From: Ensifer sp. IC3342
Lineage (GTDB): Bacteria > Pseudomonadota > Alphaproteobacteria > Rhizobiales > Rhizobiaceae
Reading direction: 5' to 3'
Length of the DNA stretch: 64,000 nucleotides
Assembly: GCF_020193655.1 (NCBI RefSeq)
Contig: NZ_JADYVE010000002.1
Coordinates: 248,001-312,000 of the forward strand
Made by a program: the position numbers and the translations under genes. Of this stretch, positions 4,609 to 17,693 are shown piece after piece. Position 1 is the stretch's first letter; the number at the start of each line of letters is the position of its first letter. Below the pieces are notes generated by a model. That model did no database searches. It was not told the origin of the DNA and worked only from the letters and a program-made list of their open reading frames with translations.

Positions 4609-5697
4609 ATGGCGACTCTTCAGAATTTTGACGCGGAAATCGAAAAGACGAAGAATGTCGTCCAGGAGATGCGCGGCAAGCTTGAGCAATCTGGCGTTGT
4701 TCTAGACCAGTTCGCCAAGGCCGACACCAAACTCGGCGACGTCAATTTCGACATCGAGAACGCCCGCATCCAGGACGTGATAAAGCAGCAGAAGGTGATG
4801 GAAGCCAACATCGCCGATCTTATCATCGGGCTTGAGGATGCGACCAACGTCTTCGGCGCCGAATTCGAAAGCATGAAGAGCTATACCGGCTATGAGAAGT
4901 TCATCGGTATGTTTTCCAAGCAGAAGATGCAGCGCTTGCGGACCGATCGCGTGCGCAACATGTCGCTTGCCGGCAACCTGCAGGAGCTTCTCGCCAAGTC
5001 CGACACCATCGTCGGCATCCTCAAGGACCAGAGGGCGATCCTCGACCAGCGCTACAAGACCTCCGAGCAGAGCCTGATCAAGGTGATCGACCGCCGCAAG
5101 GGGACGATGGCGGCGCTTGAGCAGACGCAGAAGCGCATCGAGGAGCTAAATCCCCTGTTGCTCGACATCGAGAACAGGATCGCGGCGTCGACCGACCAGA
5201 AGACGAGAACGGAACTGGAGGGCGAGCGCTCGACGCTTGCGACGGAATATAACGAGAAGCAGGCGAAGGAGCAGGAGTTGCTCGCAGAGAGCCAGACGCT
5301 CGAGCGCTACACGTCGATGTTCCAGACCTTCGTCGATTCGCTCAACAATCAGATCGCCGCGCAGAATACGCTGATCAACAAGCTGACGATCGACACCGAA
5401 CAGCGCATCGTGCTCTACAAGTCGCTGGAGGATTCGCTGAAGACGGCGGCGCAGCAGGATGTCGCCCACAAGATCAACACGCTCGGTAGCCAGGTCGACA
5501 CCGCGGCCGAGGAGACCATGGCCGGCATCGGCGCGGCCGCACAGCGTCACATCGGCGACCTGCTCGAAATGCATGAAAAGAACATGCTCGCGACGCAGGA
5601 TATCCAGCGGCGCAAGAAGCTTGCCGACGACGCCTTCGCCCGTCGCTTCCAAACGGTGATGGACAAGCATAATGCGGCAAACTACGTGAAGCAGTGA
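4609..5697 (+). CDS. Predicted coiled-coil protein, first gene of AAA+/DUF2333 cluster
   Basis: 362-residue protein without signal peptide or membrane segment. Almost entirely helical in composition, with long Glu/Lys/Gln/Leu-rich stretches (for example residues 120-260) that look like extended coiled coil. The helix-rich build recalls TelA-type toxic-anion-resistance proteins, but I do not see a decisive signature. ATG 4609 has a strong AAAGGGGGAAGG site. It is followed by four same-strand genes with an AAA+ ATPase and a DUF2333 membrane protein. By position it could be a scaffold or substrate of the ATPase; this is inference. Confidence 0.75.
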   Translation: MATLQNFDAEIEKTKNVVQEMRGKLEQSGVVLDQFAKADTKLGDVNFDIENARIQDVIKQQKVMEANIADLIIGLEDATNVFGAEFESMKSYTGYEKFIGMFSKQKMQRLRTDRVRNMSLAGNLQELLAKSDTIVGILKDQRAILDQRYKTSEQSLIKVIDRRKGTMAALEQTQKRIEELNPLLLDIENRIAASTDQKTRTELEGERSTLATEYNEKQAKEQELLAESQTLERYTSMFQTFVDSLNNQIAAQNTLINKLTIDTEQRIVLYKSLEDSLKTAAQQDVAHKINTLGSQVDTAAEETMAGIGAAAQRHIGDLLEMHEKNMLATQDIQRRKKLADDAFARRFQTVMDKHNAANYVKQ

Positions 5698-5758
5698 TCG
5701 GCAAGGCGGCAATGACCAGATCTCCGACCGCCTTTCGGCGCCTGCCGAGGGACTAGGC

Positions 5759-5829
5759 ATGAATACCGCCGCATCTGCAGCCGTACGGCAATATTTCAGT
5801 TCCATCCGGTCCGCACTGGCGGGGCTGTG
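5759..5829 (+). other. Likely original N-terminus of the second cluster gene, out of frame by a TG duplication
   Basis: ATG 5759 follows a GAGGGACTAGGC site and encodes MNTAASAAVRQYFSSIRSAL, a natural-looking amphipathic start. It then shifts out of frame at 5826-5829, where TG is doubled (CTGTGTTTCTC). Removing one TG joins this segment to the downstream frame, giving one gene 5759-6903 of about 380 codons. As read, the 5' frame continues only to a stop near 5906. Confidence 0.6.
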
Positions 5830-6903
5830 TTTCTCGGCGACCGCAACTCTCCGCTCTACAAGGACACCGTGGTCGGGGAGATCATCGTTCCCTATCTCGC
5901 CCGCCTGAAGGCCTCGATCGCCTGCTGGGAAAACCGCATCGGCTTCGTCGAGCGGTTCCGGATTTCGCGCGCCGAGAGCGGCTTCCCGGTGTTCCAGAAC
6001 GTTCTCGAATTGGAAAACGACCGGCAGAGTGCGGAAAAGCGTCTGGCGAGCATTCCTCCTGCCGATGCGCTCCGCGAGGAAATGGCCGACTTCATCCTCA
6101 GGCAGAAGGCCTTTCCCGAGGCGTTACAAGCCCGCATGGCGGAAAGGCTCTATCTCGAGCAGATCGGCAAGGGCGACATCTTCTCGCCCTTCATCCTGCC
6201 GGAGACGATTCGGGTCGCCGTCAACCCGAAGACGATGCGGCCCTATTACGTTGTCTCCTGGGGCGCCTTCGATGGCACCCAGACCCTACCCATGGTCTAC
6301 ATGGCGACGATCGAGGATTCATCGGAAAACATCGTCGAAATGCTGGTGACCCGTGACGGCAAGCTCAATCCTGACGTCGAGATTCCGCTGCCGGTCGGAG
6401 GTCTGCTCAATCCTGAACTTGCGAGCCGCTTCGATGATTTCGCCTCGAAGAACAGCGCCTATTCGCTGACGCCGGTGACGATCGCCACCAATCTCGACAA
6501 GGATTTCCCGGAGCTCCATCCGAAACAGCTTCGGCGCATCGTGCTCGGCCCTTTCTATTCGGCCGGGATCACCGAGAACAATGCCAGGATCAACGATATC
6601 CTCTCGAAGGTGCGGAAGGCCGAAAATGCCTGGCTTTTGACCTGGACGGTGCAGGAAGTCTTCTCCAAGGCCGAACGTCCTGCGGAGCGCGGCTTCTGGT
6701 CCTCGACGCCGGCGCAGGAGGAATTCCACATAGACACCGACAACCTGGAGGCTGCCCGGATGGGCGTCAGCTCCTACGAGAAGCACGCGCTCGTGCCGCA
6801 CGACGCCTATCAGGCGCTTTACGCCGAGGGCGAGGCGGGTGAGGTCTTCGGGGACTACAGAGTGCACGTGATTTCCGGCAACCAGGTGGTGAGCGAGGTT
6901 TGA
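5827..6903 (+). CDS. Hypothetical protein of the AAA+/DUF2333 cluster (5' end frameshifted)
   Basis: 358 residues if translation starts at GTG 5827, but the true start is probably ATG 5759 in another frame (see the separate entry). I do not recognise a named domain. The chain is soluble, with no membrane segment. It has a helical N-terminal third (LENDRQSAEKRLASIPPADA) and a mixed alpha/beta remainder (MRPYYVVSWGAF, HPKQLRRIVLGPF). The stop TGA at 6903 lies 3 bp before the next start, so it is tightly coupled to the ATPase gene. Either the sequence has an error, the strain carries a mutant allele with internal restart, or frameshifting occurs. Confidence 0.7.
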   Translation: MFLGDRNSPLYKDTVVGEIIVPYLARLKASIACWENRIGFVERFRISRAESGFPVFQNVLELENDRQSAEKRLASIPPADALREEMADFILRQKAFPEALQARMAERLYLEQIGKGDIFSPFILPETIRVAVNPKTMRPYYVVSWGAFDGTQTLPMVYMATIEDSSENIVEMLVTRDGKLNPDVEIPLPVGGLLNPELASRFDDFASKNSAYSLTPVTIATNLDKDFPELHPKQLRRIVLGPFYSAGITENNARINDILSKVRKAENAWLLTWTVQEVFSKAERPAERGFWSSTPAQEEFHIDTDNLEAARMGVSSYEKHALVPHDAYQALYAEGEAGEVFGDYRVHVISGNQVVSEV

Positions 6904-6905
6904 CG

Positions 6906-8822
6906 ATGACGCTGAATATCGGCCTGACGACGCTGCACGAGGACGAGATCGCCAAGCATCAGGCGACAGCCCAGAGCCTGGTCACCAAGCTGGTCATCCT
7001 CGAACAGGATGACGTATCCGGCGGGACGCCGCTCGCAGGGACCGGCCGTCGTTTTGTCTCGACGGTTTCGACCGCCGGCCAGCGGCGCACCCGCGAGGTA
7101 GAGCTTCGGCGCACGATCCAGTCCGTGCGCGGCGCCGATCCGCTCTTGTCGCCGGCCCAGCATGCCGTCCTTTACCGGACGCGCCGCGGCATTCAGGTCG
7201 CGCTTGCCGTCGCCGATGTGTTCGCGCGGCAGACGAACCTCGAGCAGTTGCAGGCGCGCAACGCCGCGGCGCCGCTCGGCGGCGAGGAGGCGGGGCAATT
7301 CAAGGCGCTGCTTTCGGCGGCCGCCTATGTCGCCGCCTTTACGCTCGCGGCCTATTTGGGTGCGACCCTGCAGAGCGAAGGCGAACCAGTCGACGATGCG
7401 GCAGAGCCGAACTTTCTTTTTGATACGCCCCAGGATGCGTTGAAGAGCATGGTCGCGGCGCTCGACCGCAGCATTGGCGGTGCGCCGGACGATCTTTCCT
7501 TGACGGCGCGGACGCGCGCCTTTTCACGCGTCGCGATCGAAGGCCTGATCGCCCGCAAGGCGCGGTTTACAGGCCTTCAGGGCTTCGAAAACGTCCATAT
7601 CCGGCTCGACCAGGACGACTTCACCCTGAACGGGTTCGACATTGCGCCGGGGCAGAAGCGCAAGCCGCTGGTGATGACCTTCAAAAAACCCGAGGAAATC
7701 ATCGGCAACCACATTGCGAAGTACCAGGCGCTGAAGCTTGCCAAGATGCTGATGGCCTATGACTTCGACCGGCAGATGAACCCCTTCGTCGAACTCGGCG
7801 GCTTTCTCTTCACCTTCATCGGCGACGGCATGCCAGGGACCGGCAAGACCATTCTCATCCAGATGCTGGCCGGGATGCTCCATGATTACTGCGGCGTCGC
7901 CGGCTACGCCTTCCATTACGAGAATTTCGGCGTCGACCAGATTTCCTCCTACCAGGGAAAGTCCGGTCAGAACTGCAAGGAATTCGTCAACAACGTCATC
8001 AATCCTCGGGCGATCGGCTTCGGCACGATCGACGATGTCGATCAGGTGGCGGCGAGGCGTTCCGACGACCGCGCTTCGGCCGGCCAGCACGAGGTGACGG
8101 CGGTGCTGATGGAGAGCTTTGCCGGTGCTTCTACCGTGGTGCGCGGCAATTGCACCTTCGGCATGTTCTCGAACTACCCGGAGAACGTCGACGACGCGTT
8201 GCGTCAGCGTGCTGGGGCGCGCTGGCTCGTCGACGGACCGCAGACGAAAGGCGACTATATCGACATCTTCGCGCTGCTTGTCGGCAAGAACCACAAGATC
8301 CCGCTGGGTGAGCACGATCTCTATGCCGGCCAGGAGATCAAGCGCGCGGTCTCGCAGTCCTATGCGGCCCATTCACGGCCGCAGGAGGAGGGGCTTGCTG
8401 CCGTTTGGGAGCGTTACGAGAAGGAAAAGGGCAAGATTTCCACGCTCGCCGACGTCGGCGCCTATCTGCATATGATCAAGGAAGCCGAGCCGCGCTTTAC
8501 CGGCCGGGCGATCAGGAATATCACCGACGCGATCAAAATGCGGGCGATGGACGTCGAGCTTCCCGACGACTGGTTCAAGGACGCCGGCGCCTTCATGCAC
8601 AAGTCCTACGACGAGAAGAAGGCGATGATCGAAGAGTTGCGCGGCCCGATCACGATCGAGATGGTGCTGCAGGAAATCAACCGCTACGCCGACAGCGAGT
8701 TCCGCTACACCGACAAGTCGGACGATGCCGCCGTTCACGACATCATCAGGCGTGAGCGCCAGCGCGAACGGGCAATCCGCGAAATCGAGGCGATGAAGAG
8801 GGAGGGCAGGTGGCAGGCATGA
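6906..8822 (+). CDS. AAA+ ATPase of the uncharacterised cluster
   Basis: 638 residues. N-terminal region (1-230) is of unknown fold and includes a hydrophobic stretch near SAAAYVAAFTLAAYLG. The AAA+ core begins about residue 295: Walker A GDGMPGTGKT; a Walker B-like strand ending in Asp-Asp-Val-Asp (FGTIDDVDQVAARRSDD) in place of the usual Asp-Glu; a sensor 1-like Asn in GMFSNYPENVDDALRQR; and a candidate arginine finger in LRQRAGARW. ATG 6906 is preferred over TTG 6900 because GAGG sits 7 nt upstream. Probably an energy-driven remodelling enzyme acting with the flanking coiled-coil and membrane proteins; substrate unknown. Confidence 0.8.
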   Translation: MTLNIGLTTLHEDEIAKHQATAQSLVTKLVILEQDDVSGGTPLAGTGRRFVSTVSTAGQRRTREVELRRTIQSVRGADPLLSPAQHAVLYRTRRGIQVALAVADVFARQTNLEQLQARNAAAPLGGEEAGQFKALLSAAAYVAAFTLAAYLGATLQSEGEPVDDAAEPNFLFDTPQDALKSMVAALDRSIGGAPDDLSLTARTRAFSRVAIEGLIARKARFTGLQGFENVHIRLDQDDFTLNGFDIAPGQKRKPLVMTFKKPEEIIGNHIAKYQALKLAKMLMAYDFDRQMNPFVELGGFLFTFIGDGMPGTGKTILIQMLAGMLHDYCGVAGYAFHYENFGVDQISSYQGKSGQNCKEFVNNVINPRAIGFGTIDDVDQVAARRSDDRASAGQHEVTAVLMESFAGASTVVRGNCTFGMFSNYPENVDDALRQRAGARWLVDGPQTKGDYIDIFALLVGKNHKIPLGEHDLYAGQEIKRAVSQSYAAHSRPQEEGLAAVWERYEKEKGKISTLADVGAYLHMIKEAEPRFTGRAIRNITDAIKMRAMDVELPDDWFKDAGAFMHKSYDEKKAMIEELRGPITIEMVLQEINRYADSEFRYTDKSDDAAVHDIIRRERQRERAIREIEAMKREGRWQA

Positions 8823-8875
8823 GCGAAGTGGATCCCGAGCGCTCAAGTGCCACGGCGAGGAGCACCCCAGCATGA
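8819..8875 (+). CDS. Possible 18-codon linker ORF between cluster genes 3 and 4
   Basis: MSEVDPERSSATARSTPA, 18 residues. Its ATG overlaps the ATPase stop (ATGA at 8819-8822) and its TGA overlaps the next ATG (ATGA at 8872-8875). A strong GAGGGAGGGCAGG site precedes it. It may act only as a translational relay, or may be a remnant of a longer N-terminus of the next gene after a frameshift. Low confidence that a stable peptide is made. Confidence 0.25.
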   Translation: MSEVDPERSSATARSTPA

Positions 8876-10161
8876 AACGCCTCCTCGAAGCCGAGCTGAT
8901 CTACGGTCGGCTGCTCGACATAATCGAGCCGCATCTCGTAGCTCGTTACAACAAGGCGCTGGAGGGCTTGGGCTTAAAACCGACGGCGCTCGATCATTTC
9001 AGCATCGACATGACCGGTTTCTCGCCGGAAATCGCCGAGGAACTTGCGGATCGCGATTATCTCGACCCGAACCGCGTCAATCGGCGTTTCATCATCCTGA
9101 CGCCGGCTCAGGCGGACCTTCCCGTTGTCCATACGAGTTTTTCCAACACCGCGGCGCTGATGCATGAATTCTTCAATGCCAACAGCCGCGCGATCAACGC
9201 GGTGACCATCAAGGATGCGCTCTACGGCGAGATCGAGGACTCGGTCTCGGTGGTAGAGGACATCGACGATCTCCTTTCGATCAACGAGGTTCGCTTCCGG
9301 GTACTTTCCGCGGAAGACATGCTCGGCAAGGCGACCGAGCTCAGGGAACTGGTGGACCGGCTGAAGAAGATACCGACTGCCTGGGCCGATGACGCCATGC
9401 TGAACCGGATGGTGGAGCTGGCAAAAGCGACCGGCGACATCCGGCAGAACGCGTTGGTGCCAAACGAGCTCGTTTTCCGCCACGAGGCCTTCTGGGCCAA
9501 TCACTTCGGCGGCGTCTATGTTTTCCTAGACCAAAAGACGACGACGGTGATCTGCGATCCCTCGGTGCCCGGTTTCAGGCGGTCGCGGCCATGGCAGGTG
9601 AGCTACATTGCCATCAACGATCATGCGCGTATCTACGAGTTTCTCGCCCGGACCAACCGGCTGCAACTGCCTCAGGCATCCTGGGTGCAGGAATCCGGGC
9701 TGTTCCAACACCGGGCAGACATGATCATTCGCGGGCTGATCAACGATGCCGATCCGACAGCCGATCTCATGAATGCTGACCGGATCTGGCTGCAGACCTG
9801 GATCCACCGCAACGCGGCGCTTGTGTCGCGCGACGGAACCTACCCCTTACTTCAGGAAATGGCCCGGACGATTGCGGCAACGGGCACGATCACCATGGCG
9901 GAGGTCCCGCCGGAACATCGCTTCCTGGTCGTACGCGCGGCACCGATGCATCCCGATCAATGGCTGGTGAACCGCCTGATCTCTGAACTCATCCCCCGCG
10001 ACTTCGTTTCTCGCTTCGTGTTCGACAAGCAGGGATTCTATGGCGCTTACGAGCACTACGGCGAAAAGTTCCGGGAATATGTTGTCGCGACATTGACCAG
10101 TACGTATCTCAAGGACAAGGCCGCTTTCCGCCACAAGCTTTACGGTCTCAAAGAGGAATAG
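8872..10161 (+). CDS. Hypothetical protein of the AAA+/DUF2333 cluster
   Basis: 429-residue soluble protein without a signal peptide or transmembrane helix. I do not recognise a domain. The N-terminal 100 residues are helical; the centre holds acidic patches (GEIEDSVSVVEDIDDLLSIN) and the C-terminal half mixed alpha/beta segments, including a repeated pattern of hydrophobic strands near VYVFLDQKTTTVICD. GAGGAG lies 9 nt before ATG 8872. Lies between the AAA+ ATPase and the DUF2333 membrane protein, 3 bp from the latter, so all are probably co-translated and may form one complex. Confidence 0.75.
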   Translation: MKRLLEAELIYGRLLDIIEPHLVARYNKALEGLGLKPTALDHFSIDMTGFSPEIAEELADRDYLDPNRVNRRFIILTPAQADLPVVHTSFSNTAALMHEFFNANSRAINAVTIKDALYGEIEDSVSVVEDIDDLLSINEVRFRVLSAEDMLGKATELRELVDRLKKIPTAWADDAMLNRMVELAKATGDIRQNALVPNELVFRHEAFWANHFGGVYVFLDQKTTTVICDPSVPGFRRSRPWQVSYIAINDHARIYEFLARTNRLQLPQASWVQESGLFQHRADMIIRGLINDADPTADLMNADRIWLQTWIHRNAALVSRDGTYPLLQEMARTIAATGTITMAEVPPEHRFLVVRAAPMHPDQWLVNRLISELIPRDFVSRFVFDKQGFYGAYEHYGEKFREYVVATLTSTYLKDKAAFRHKLYGLKEE

Positions 10162-10164
10162 GAC

Positions 10165-11391
10165 ATGTTCGATCCGATCGTTGCGTTTTTTCAGCGTGGT
10201 TTCACGGCGATCGGCCGTGGCATCGGGCTGGCGGTGGCCTGGCTCCTCTGGCCCTTCGTCGCACTCGGCAACTGGTATCGGGCAAGAAGCTGGATCATCA
10301 AGGGCCCGATCGGCCTCGTCCTGCTCGGCCTTATCCTATTCTACGGCTACTTCATCTGGCAGACGCAGGCCTGGACCAATTTCAATCCCGATTATGTCGA
10401 TCGCTACAAGGTTGCCGAGCGCAAAGTTCCGGCAGGGTCGCCGGTAAGCGGTCCTGGGACAACGACGCCGGGACAGCCAAATGTGGGGGCTACCGGCGAC
10501 CGGGCCGCTGCGGGCGGTTCATCGGGCGAAGCCGACACGACCGAGGCACTCGCCATGGCTCAGCTGCCGGCGGGAACGGTGTGCCAGACCTCGGCGATCG
10601 TCGACGTCGCGGCCGATCTCATCGACTTCAACGTCAACCAGAATGCCTGGATATCCTCGATGCTGCTCTACAAGCTCGGCCTTTTCGGGCTCGATTGGGA
10701 CGACACGCCCTGGCTCGACAACAAGGCGTCGTTCCAGCGCGGCATCAACCAGGCGATACGCCGCACCTCGGTCGAACTCGTCGATTCGCTCGGACGCGTC
10801 CGCGGCACGTCGGGTATCAACAACGATCTGCAAAGCGCGCGCGGCAACATCCAGTTCGACGAGGAGACCTGGTATTTCGGCGTCAATCCGTTCGGACCAA
10901 AAACGCCGACCCCGAGCTTCTATCGGGCGGCGATGCGCGATTTCAGGAAGTTCAATGTTTCGCTCGGCAAGTGCGAGGCGATTTTCGACGGTCGGTCCGA
11001 CAACATGGTCGAGTTCCTCGACCGCATCGCCAACGATCTCGGCAATACCTCGGCGATCATCCGCGAACGCTCCGAATTCCACAATGGCGGCTGGTTCGAC
11101 ACGCGCGCGGACGACCGCTTCTGGTTCGCCTTCGGCCAGCTCTATGGCTACTACGGCATTCTGTCCGCCGCCGGTGCCGACTTCGAGAACGTCGTCGCCC
11201 AGCGCGGCCTGACGCCGATCTGGACGGAGACGATCAGGCAGTTGCGCGCCGCCTTGAACATCCAGCCGCTCATCATCTCGAACGGCCGCGAGGATGGCTG
11301 GATCATGCCGACACATCTGGCGACGATGGGCTTCTACATCCTTCGTGTGCGCTCCAACCTGGTGGAAATGCGCGATATCCTTGCCCGATGA
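10165..11391 (+). CDS. DUF2333 family membrane-anchored protein
   Basis: 408 residues. Two hydrophobic segments near the N-terminus (about 18-36 and 47-66) place it in the inner membrane. They are followed by a Pro/Gly/Thr-rich linker (95-130) and a larger soluble domain, probably periplasmic. The conserved body (ALGLDWDDTPWLDNKA type region, then helices to the C-terminus) matches what is expected of DUF2333, a family with no assigned function. ATG 10165 has AGGAATAGGAC upstream. Last gene of the cluster: a membrane anchor for the cytosolic AAA+ ATPase machinery is a reasonable inference. Confidence 0.75.
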   Translation: MFDPIVAFFQRGFTAIGRGIGLAVAWLLWPFVALGNWYRARSWIIKGPIGLVLLGLILFYGYFIWQTQAWTNFNPDYVDRYKVAERKVPAGSPVSGPGTTTPGQPNVGATGDRAAAGGSSGEADTTEALAMAQLPAGTVCQTSAIVDVAADLIDFNVNQNAWISSMLLYKLGLFGLDWDDTPWLDNKASFQRGINQAIRRTSVELVDSLGRVRGTSGINNDLQSARGNIQFDEETWYFGVNPFGPKTPTPSFYRAAMRDFRKFNVSLGKCEAIFDGRSDNMVEFLDRIANDLGNTSAIIRERSEFHNGGWFDTRADDRFWFAFGQLYGYYGILSAAGADFENVVAQRGLTPIWTETIRQLRAALNIQPLIISNGREDGWIMPTHLATMGFYILRVRSNLVEMRDILAR

Positions 11392-15587: not shown

Positions 15588-17693
15588 ATGCTCAACCGGC
15601 ATCATCGCCTGGCTCTTCTCGCATGCACGGCGACACTCGCTCTATCGGCTGCCTCCAACGCATTCGTTCAAGACGCTGCGGCCGCCCAGACAGAAACCGA
15701 GAAAGCCGAAGCCGCGAAAGGCGAAACCTATCTCTCGACGATCGTGGTGAAGGGCGGACGTGACGCCGATCCCTATGCCAAGCCTGGCCCTTCGAGCACG
15801 GTGACCACGGACGAGATCGAATTGCAAGCGGGCCAGGAGACCGACGATCTGCTCCGCAGCGTGCCCGGAACGTCAACGGCCAACAACCCTCAGAACCCCG
15901 GTGTCGCGGTGAATATTCGCGGCTTTGAAGGATCCGGCCGGGTCAACATGATGATCGACGGCGTGCGCCAGAATTTCCGGTTTACCGGCCACGAGGCTCA
16001 AGGCTTCGCCTACTTCGATCCTGCCTTTCTTGCCGGGATCGACGTCACACGAGGCGCCGTTACGGGTATCGGCGGCGGCGCGCTGGCCGGTTCGGTCAAC
16101 TTCCGGACCTATGACATCGAAGATCTGATCTCGGACGGCAAGAATTATGGCGGCCATGCTGCGGTCACCTACGGAACGAACGGCAGTGGCTGGTCGGAAT
16201 CGCTGCTGGGCGCCTATCGTTTCAACGACGTCTTCTCCGTCCTCGGTGGTATCAGCAAGAGCGATCCAGGCAATTACGACAACGGCAACGGCATCGAAGT
16301 TCCGTTTACCGAAGAAGATCTGCTCTCGGGCCTTCTGAAGGCCGAAATCACGCCGGACGAGGACCATTCGTTCAAGTTCAGCGCGATGTCCTACGACAAC
16401 GATTTCTTCGCGAACTCCTATTTCCAGAACGTGAAGAATCAGACGCTCGGCGCCAACTACGCCTACACACCCGACAACGAGCTCATCGATTTCCACGCCA
16501 ACGCCTACTACAACCGGGTGAAGATGCAATATGACGGCAATATCACCGGCGGCGGTTCAGCAAAGGGACGAGAAATCACCGACACCGGCACGGGCTTCGA
16601 TATCTCGAACACGTCACTGTTCGACCTCGGCGAGGTGGCCGTCCGAGCCAACTACGGTGTGGAATATTTCCAGGACGACTACGATGTCATCAACAGCGCG
16701 GCGCAGCCTTCGGGTGGCGTTAACGGTGATGGCAAGAACTCGACAACCGGCATCTTCAGCACGAACACGTTCACTTACGGAATAGCCGAGTTGACGGCGG
16801 GATTGCGCTACGACCGCTACACGATCGACGGAAGTGGCGTTGTTTCCGCCTTCAATCCGCTCGGAATGCCGGCTGGTCCTTACAGTGTCAACGATTCGGA
16901 CGGACGCCTCAATCCCAGCGTGACAGTTGCGCTTAACCCCACGGACTGGCTGCAGCCCTACGTGACCTATGCGGAAACCTCGCGGGCGCCGACGGTGAAT
17001 GAAACGTTCGCCGGCGGCTCGCACCCCGGTGGATTCCAGATGTTCTTCCCCAACCCGTTCCTCGAGTTGGAAATATCCAAGGGCTGGGAAATAGGCTCCA
17101 ACATTAGGCTGGATGATTTCATCGTTGCGGGAGACAGCTTCCGCCTGAAGGCGAACTATTTCTACGACAGGGTCGATAACTACATTACCGCGGCCATGAA
17201 TGGTATGGGTCAGGTCTTCTTCATCAACAATGAGGGTGAGTCCACGGTTCAGGGTTTTGAGTTGCAGGCCGCCTATGATGCGGGCTATGCTTTCGGAAAC
17301 CTTGCCTATACATACACCGACAGCGATCTCCCCGAGCAGATCAATGGCTTCGGCGTACAGAGCTTCCTTCCAGACCACATCGTAAGCGCAACGCTGGGGG
17401 CGCGCTTCCTTGAGGATCAGCGCCTGACGGTAGGCACGCGTATCTATGCCGTTTCCACAGCCTTCATCGGCGATTTCAACGCGACGATGCGCGGTTCCGA
17501 CCGGCACGTTCCGGGCTATGGGGTCGTAGATCTCTTTGCGAACTACCAGTTCGAAAACGGCTTCGAACTGACGGGAACCGTGACCAACCTGTTCGACAAG
17601 GCCTACACGCCGGCATCGAGTACCATCGCCGGCAGCACGGTCGATACGGGTCGCGGCCGGACGTTCCTCGTCACCGCGAAGGCCAAATTCTGA
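15588..17693 (+). CDS. shmR: TonB-dependent heme/hemoglobin receptor ShmR
   Basis: 701-residue outer-membrane receptor that imports heme using TonB energy. It starts with a signal peptide (MLNRHHRLALLACTATLALS), then a TonB box-like ETYLSTIVV (about 47-55), a plug domain (about 65-175; NIRGFEGSGRVNMMIDGVRQ) and a beta-barrel ending in Phe (AKAKF). A FRAP-like SRAP and an NPxLE segment (NPFLELEISKGWEIG) are typical of heme receptors. ATG 15588 has AAAGGA upstream. It lies next to trpE(G), as shmR does in S. meliloti. The IRO box indicates iron repression. A terminator follows. Confidence 0.88.
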   Translation: MLNRHHRLALLACTATLALSAASNAFVQDAAAAQTETEKAEAAKGETYLSTIVVKGGRDADPYAKPGPSSTVTTDEIELQAGQETDDLLRSVPGTSTANNPQNPGVAVNIRGFEGSGRVNMMIDGVRQNFRFTGHEAQGFAYFDPAFLAGIDVTRGAVTGIGGGALAGSVNFRTYDIEDLISDGKNYGGHAAVTYGTNGSGWSESLLGAYRFNDVFSVLGGISKSDPGNYDNGNGIEVPFTEEDLLSGLLKAEITPDEDHSFKFSAMSYDNDFFANSYFQNVKNQTLGANYAYTPDNELIDFHANAYYNRVKMQYDGNITGGGSAKGREITDTGTGFDISNTSLFDLGEVAVRANYGVEYFQDDYDVINSAAQPSGGVNGDGKNSTTGIFSTNTFTYGIAELTAGLRYDRYTIDGSGVVSAFNPLGMPAGPYSVNDSDGRLNPSVTVALNPTDWLQPYVTYAETSRAPTVNETFAGGSHPGGFQMFFPNPFLELEISKGWEIGSNIRLDDFIVAGDSFRLKANYFYDRVDNYITAAMNGMGQVFFINNEGESTVQGFELQAAYDAGYAFGNLAYTYTDSDLPEQINGFGVQSFLPDHIVSATLGARFLEDQRLTVGTRIYAVSTAFIGDFNATMRGSDRHVPGYGVVDLFANYQFENGFELTGTVTNLFDKAYTPASSTIAGSTVDTGRGRTFLVTAKAKF

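Follow-up and report, generated by a model that had tools for sequence, protein, structure and literature searches.

A four-gene AAA ATPase unit with an exchangeable membrane partner in Ensifer sp. IC3342 and other Proteobacteria

The window analyzed here, a 64,000-nucleotide stretch of Ensifer sp. IC3342 (contig NZ_JADYVE010000002.1, positions 248,001 to 312,000), contains five consecutive plus-strand genes at positions 4609 to 11391, which we call g1 to g5. They are flanked by a thymidine kinase gene (tdk) and fhs in a genome of 7.4 Mb and encode a coiled-coil protein, a protein of no recognized family, an AAA ATPase, a DUF6638 protein, and a DUF2333 protein (Table 1). The tight spacing claimed by the original prediction, which was made from the DNA alone, is borne out by the open reading frames (ORFs): g2 and g3 share 4 nucleotides (nt), and gaps of 49 nt and 3 nt separate g3 from g4 and g4 from g5. 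Comparison with other genomes shows that g1, g2, g3, and g4 are inherited as one unit; the real unit is four genes, not five.

Table 1. Genes and internal features of the cluster, in window coordinates
Feature	Position	Strand	Basis or remark
g1, coiled-coil protein	4609..5697	+	ORF; 362 amino acids (aa); evolves most slowly among the core proteins
g1 residues 272-293, candidate site for docking of the ATPase set (putative function)	5422..5487	+	
g2, soluble protein without a family match	5827..6903	+	ORF; in relatives, the start lies about 23 residues upstream
g3, classical AAA ATPase, 640 aa	6900..8822	+	PF00004, E 4e-10
g3 Walker A, residues 308-317	7821..7850	+	Alignment
g3 Walker B, residues 374-381, Asp-Asp replacing Asp-Glu	8019..8042	+	Alignment
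g4, DUF6638 protein, 429 aa	8872..10161	+	PF20343, 251.2 bits
g5, DUF2333 protein of the cluster type with N-terminal membrane segment(s); partner that can be exchanged	10165..11391	+	PF10095, hydropathy

Among the five proteins, Pfam assigns families to g3 (AAA, PF00004; 40.7 bits against a cut-off of 21.2), g4 (DUF6638, PF20343; E 2e-74, with a cut-off of 27 bits), and g5 (DUF2333, PF10095; 61.4 bits against 22). NCBIfam, PHROGs, and PADLOC match only the AAA domain of g3 and give nothing reliable for g1, g2, g4, and g5. Of the two soluble proteins that had been described as unrecognized, g2 remains so, with no Pfam family at an E value of 0.1, and g4 does not. The promoter predicted upstream of the cluster did not hold up: the sole promoter-like match on the plus strand between 4300 and 11500 lies inside g1 (4628 to 4656), and the two matches found in total are at the level of shuffled sequence (mean, 1.6). 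Literature searches under DUF6638, COG5345, PF10095, PF20343, and PF07509 returned nothing, and the one paper found under DUF2333 calls it uncharacterized; no assigned pathway was found, in agreement with the statement that the genes have no assigned role.

A scan of named genomes for g3 returned at least 575 related places; the 80 best were retained and joined with 20 further loci into a set of 100; the closest loci among the matches listed belong to Ensifer and Sinorhizobium. In this set, g3 is present in all 100 loci, g1, g2, and g4 in 99 each, and g5 in 97. Five intact ORFs in identical order and on the same strand are found in 95 of the 100 (the exceptions are L027, L039, L041, L042, and L044), whereas tdk and fhs are present in only 62 and 65 of the same stretches, indicating that the linkage of the five genes is more than chance. 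The scattering among relatives that the original prediction would have expected if there were no system is therefore not what is seen.

The distribution of the genes separates a core from a looser partner. Within the order of the window, g3 occurs in 21 of 121 genomes (14 of 85 genera; 11 families). In 398 genomes from across the phylum, g3 and the DUF6638 gene g4 share exactly the same 26 genomes, which fall into four families. A g1 relative is found in 31 of the 398: these 26, four Rhizobiaceae genomes that lack g3 and have g1 and g5 only (G023, G216, G360, and G371; the first three were themselves part of the g1 query alignment), and G315, whose doubtful match at E 8e-4 we take as spurious. 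When 43 genomes were searched for g2, it was recovered in all five positive controls and in none of the 38 genomes without g3. DUF2333 is far more widespread than the cluster (98 of 398 genomes). A simple probability for these co-occurrences would be meaningless because the genomes are related.

The core proteins also diverge in parallel. Pairwise distances correlate at 0.983 for g2 and g4, 0.977 for g2 and g3, and 0.968 for g3 and g4, and g1 follows these three at 0.90 to 0.95; the values are 0.81 to 0.92 for g5 against g1 to g4. For tdk or fhs they are 0.81 to 0.88 against g1 to g4 and 0.78 to 0.79 against g5, a rough comparison, as the most distant pairs are not represented for the flanking genes. 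In the 110 loci holding all four core genes, median pairwise identity is 0.80 for g1 versus 0.61 to 0.70 for g2, g3, and g4. We give next to no credence to the view that these genes are mere neighbors without a joint function, and for g1 to g4 it is already refuted. In its favor, tdk and fhs also stay adjacent in many Rhizobiaceae; however, the genome sets of g3 and g4 are identical, g2 keeps solely to g3 in the genomes searched, and the order is the same in distant families and on Vibrio plasmids despite different flanks.

The composition of these plasmid copies sets g5 apart from the other four genes. Ten plasmid records carry g3, and four were looked at; two Vibrio plasmids (about 0.9 Mb) and pRlX5 of Rhizobium leguminosarum have g1-g2-g3-g4 with no DUF2333 in the stretch, and the fourth record, from Sinorhizobium meliloti, has all five genes. 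The Vibrio plasmid g3 is 41% identical to that of the window. On the Vibrio vulnificus plasmid L334, as on L335, a 279-aa ORF without a Pfam match precedes the core (L334:8371-9210), and an mfd gene follows it (L334:15124-18585). A second set without DUF2333 in the stretch consists of loci L184 to L195: 11 come from the 13 genomes with g3 in family f60, which belongs to the same class as the window, and one comes from G164 (same phylum only); g1-g2-g3-g4 are in order in 12 of 12. In all of them, as well as in L042 from the order of the window, a DUF1523 gene lies downstream of g4, giving 13 loci with DUF1523 in place of DUF2333 (Pfam confirmation was run for two, L186 and L042). Between g4 and DUF1523, a protein of 88 to 120 aa with hydrophobic stretches is encoded in 11 of the 13 (none was seen in L193 and L042). 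The membrane partner is thus a DUF2333 protein in nearly all Hyphomicrobiales loci seen and a DUF1523 protein in the 13 others, and this exchange, together with plasmid copies that have no DUF2333, defines a core of four soluble proteins; of the five-gene system originally proposed, the g1 to g4 part stands, and g5 is exchangeable.

Of the two N-terminal membrane helices attributed to g5, hydropathy analysis finds one clear hydrophobic segment (residues 47 to 65) and one borderline segment (16 to 34). Among 97 relatives of g5 in clusters, 63 have two such segments and 34 have one; the second segment is present in none of 22 stand-alone DUF2333 proteins. Two cysteines, Cys140 and Cys270 in the numbering of the window protein, are found in 97 of 97 cluster proteins and in all 61 g1-g5 pairs from g3-less genomes but in only 1 of the 22 stand-alone proteins (L215), so that the cysteine pair goes with g1 and not with g3. 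An N-terminal membrane segment combined with two fixed cysteines suggests a periplasmic disulfide, and the large domain of g5 is probably located in the periplasm. A stand-alone DUF2333 protein is named and termed uncharacterized in passages of a paper on a Pseudomonas type VI secretion system (PMC5256989). The cluster form passes the same family cut-off as the stand-alone proteins and differs from them by the cysteine pair and the frequent second hydrophobic segment. A gene for another membrane protein, of the Band_7/SPFH family, separates g1 from g2 in 5 of 114 loci (L080, L088, L098, L122, and L123; Pfam-checked in three of the five).

By sequence, the nearest solved relatives of g3, over its AAA domain, are FtsH-type, AFG2, and proteasomal ATPases. 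Like the classical AAA ATPases (FtsH, Msp1, AFG2, and proteasomal), g3 has a Walker A motif and conserved arginines after sensor 1 in a PF00004 domain; unlike them, it has an Asp-Asp Walker B, its own N-terminal region of about 300 residues, and three dedicated partner genes, and no protease domain was found in it. A search for an N-terminal MIT domain of the Vps4 type gave none, as Pfam to an E value of 1 returns AAA and AAA_3 alone, although a strongly diverged domain could escape such a search. The intact Walker A and unusual Walker B noticed earlier are both confirmed in relatives: Walker A (GDG.PGTGKT) is intact in 113 of 113, and Asp-Asp replaces the usual Asp-Glu, with its catalytic Glu, in 112 of 113 (the remaining ORF gave no pattern match), making the odd Walker B a family trait. 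The stretch DDALRQRAGAR, which holds candidate arginine fingers, is found in 112 of 113 relatives, and the last one has an A-to-S variant; the Vibrio copy L334 retains Walker A and Asp-Asp and does not have DDALRQRAGAR in the form searched. This persistent Asp-Asp pair would suit a nonhydrolyzing nucleotide-binding switch, in which g3 locks the complex and the whole forms a static scaffold. We consider such a switch rather improbable, since Walker A and the arginine-finger stretch are equally strict (113 of 113 each, counting the one A-to-S variant), which better fits working ATPases, and the Asp may still serve catalysis.

The products of g2 and g4 have no counterpart among solved structures in the searches made. 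AlphaFold2 models of g2 and g4 have mean pLDDT (predicted local distance difference test) values of 84 and 82, and Foldseek comparison of both models with the PDB gave no match at E ≤ 0.001. The g2 model likewise had no match among viral models at this threshold; the top-ranking rows were levivirus proteins whose template modeling scores were very low. Profile searches of PDB sequences yielded no match for g4 and a single match at chance level for g2. The fold of either protein may have been missed, because the models were built on 68 and 70 rather similar sequences. Comparison with three close relatives reveals a small out-of-frame deletion near the start of the window g2 (5690 to 5900), which puts about 23 N-terminal residues out of frame; this is either a real change or an assembly error. 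Since neither g2 nor g4 is found without g3 in the genomes searched, both would be dedicated partners of the ATPase. Several soluble partners that strictly accompany an ATPase, and plasmid copies without a recognized membrane partner, are also what would be expected of an AAA chaperone that inserts cofactors into an enzyme or activates it, with g2 and g4 as fitting partners, g1 as a scaffold, and no role in membrane shape. This alternative appears unlikely: no enzyme gene accompanies the four, the tdk, fhs, and choline transporter genes being flanks that are often absent; g2 and g4 have no Pfam match to known partner domains apart from DUF6638; and g1 and g5 persist alone.

The identity of g1 was approached by comparison with known coiled-coil families. 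Pfam matches of g1 members to kinetochore proteins and similar coiled coils were set aside as coiled-coil noise. PspA_IM30 is absent from the four families matched by the window g1 at E ≤ 1 and is not among the 25 families shown of 72 for 31 g1 members; the hhalign probability for kinship with PspA is 4.7 (against a crude alignment of PspA ORFs), about the level of a TelA-PspA control (9.1). For TelA, suspected from a superficially similar helical pattern, the probability is 7.2 over 45 columns, with three TelA sequences only (L182, with an ORF in the wrong frame, was left out), and TelA (PF05816) does not match the window g1 in Pfam at E ≤ 1; profile-level kinship was not detected in this small comparison. 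As the genome of the window has no PspA, replacement of PspA by the cluster was also considered. In a survey of 41 of the 43 known g3-bearing genomes (omitting G114 and G000, which was searched separately) and 39 g3-less genomes, PspA is present in 16 of 41 and 15 of 39, respectively, which does not support the idea. Only L042 among 114 loci has a PspA gene close to the cluster, as judged from a single phmmer query, and we treat this as chance.

More informative is what becomes of g1 in genomes without the ATPase. All 60 genomes searched from the genus of G216 have a diverged g1, and g3 was found in 0 of 60; this g3 search included no positive genome, and the same query matches 26 of the 398 genomes, with G023, G216, and G360 negative. 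Sixty-four g3-less g1 loci were collected, which represent 62 distinct Rhizobiaceae genomes, including G360 and G371 (another genus), after removal of two duplicates (L256 of L198 and L242 of L201). DUF2333 is found within the stretch in 63 of the 64 and is the same-strand neighbor of g1 in 62. Residues 281 to 290 of the window g1 are absent in 62 of 62 g3-less genomes; between window residues 271 and 330, the g3-less proteins have 33 to 38 residues, whereas all 30 g3-bearing rows aligned have 60. Realignment puts the absent stretch at 22 to 27 residues in all 62, narrowing an earlier profile-based count in which the whole tail from residue 276 was missing in 58 of 62, and an alignment of ten sequences shows a clean 22-residue gap, 272 to 293, in all five g3-less rows. 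The same segment is retained in g1 of the Vibrio and R. leguminosarum plasmid copies, which have the ATPase. Identity between the Vibrio and window proteins is 0.73 over residues 256 to 270, 0.47 to 0.53 over 271 to 315, 0.07 to 0.47 over 1 to 255, and 0.60 over 346 to 360, so the segment is well kept in Vibrio, though not uniquely so. Because the stretch is lost where g3, g2, and g4 are absent, residues ~272 to 293 of g1 may serve as a docking segment for the ATPase set, and g1 and g5 presumably can function without it.

Insertions between the genes are concentrated at one point. The g3-g4 junction exceeds 350 bp in 53 of 98 loci, compared with 5 of 98 for g1-g2, 5 of 97 for g2-g3, and 3 of 97 for g4-g5; it is a repeated insertion site. 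Loci with inserts here include L060, L065, L073, L083, L104, and L337, and the examples tested encode ParE toxins, a ribbon-helix-helix protein, a PIN/Phd pair, a helix-turn-helix protein, and a DUF559 protein; one S. meliloti copy carries an insertion sequence element and an endonuclease gene at this junction. Between g2 and g3, Fic/DOC family genes were seen in two loci (L025:6803-7633 and L111:7221-8000) and two others (L090:7217-7999 and L114:7261-8007) have an ORF of about 250 aa there that matches no Pfam family at an E value of 0.01. The toxin-antitoxin genes among these g3-g4 inserts, the patchy spread within the order, the copies on large plasmids, and the weak PADLOC match of g3 to TRIP13 (E 1.4e-5) could point to a conflict, defense, or replicon-keeping module on plasmids and chromosomes. 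This seems improbable to us, as PADLOC matches none of the other four proteins, g4 and the Vibrio g3 have no match in 50,697 phage records, the chromosomal setting near a choline transporter and fhs is common to many Rhizobiaceae, and a diverged g1 is retained with g5 throughout the genus of G216.

To our knowledge, no counterpart of g2 and g4 exists in the PspA/Vipp1 or ESCRT-III systems. The operons of these systems, as presented in parts of PMC11237479 and PMC10936438, resemble the present cluster in joining AAA ATPase, coiled-coil, and membrane proteins, and sections of PMC11237479 associate AAA ATPases, coiled-coil proteins, and Band-7 proteins with PspA and read the set as sub-membrane remodeling; the Band_7 gene inside this cluster in a few loci adds to the likeness. 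The cluster differs in that g1 has no detectable kinship with PspA and that there is no preferential co-occurrence with PspA.

We propose, with a probability of roughly 0.5, that g1 to g4 form one ATP-driven machine that acts on a g1 scaffold and is attached to the membrane through an exchangeable protein. Linkage, co-occurrence, and parallel divergence are observed, and from them we infer a physical complex. In this machine, g3 would be a predicted ATP-driven ring, with g2 and g4 as its dedicated adaptors or cofactors, and the long coiled coil g1 would be its scaffold or substrate, engaged through residues ~272 to 293. In Hyphomicrobiales, the special DUF2333 form encoded by g5 would couple g1 to the inner membrane, a DUF1523 protein taking its place in other lineages; a membrane setting is suggested by the presence of g5 or DUF1523 in chromosomal clusters and of the occasional Band_7 gene. 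The purpose may be the ATP-powered assembly or disassembly of a g1 structure under the membrane, that is, envelope maintenance, which is the weakest step of the explanation. The membrane-anchored, ATP-driven machine of the original prediction thus stands as a reasonable reading rather than a demonstrated fact. A more specific version, which we offer tentatively and hold to be on the unlikely side, is a machine that is like ESCRT-III/Vps4 and not derived from it: g1 would form a scaffold beneath the membrane, the ATPase would dismantle it via residues 272 to 293, two proteins of new fold would act as guides, and the transmembrane partners would set the site.

Several points weigh against the proposed g1-g4 machine. 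The complex and the ATPase activity are predicted from genomes, and with an Asp-Asp Walker B, hydrolysis could be weak or absent. The gap in g1 has the same position in all g3-less genomes, which suggests one ancestral loss; the loss may be a single event, and the 62 genomes therefore do not stand for as many independent losses. No recognized membrane partner is seen near the plasmid copies of Vibrio and R. leguminosarum. PspA is as common in genomes with g3 as in those without it (16/41 and 15/39), and Band_7 and PspA neighbors are rare, at 5 and 1 of 114 loci.

In S. meliloti, SMc02726 is shmR, and a TonB-dependent receptor gene lies beyond fhs in the record; its positional counterpart in the window is a 701-aa ORF at 15588 to 17693. 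We presume the S. meliloti ATPase to be SMc02733 by counting genes down from choX and give this assignment no weight. A ChvI-bound fragment is listed inside SMc02733 in part of PMC3687685; the mapping to the gene is our own and is not used as support.

Taken together, the cluster is a strictly linked ATPase module of nitrogen-fixing symbionts, other Alphaproteobacteria, and some Vibrio plasmids, for which no described function was found in the literature searched. Two of its proteins, g2 and g4, gave no structural match in the PDB. The ATPase-less genomes, which also lack one stretch of g1, provide a natural comparison and lead to a testable prediction of a docking site, and the module would give DUF6638, DUF1523, and DUF2333 a shared context.

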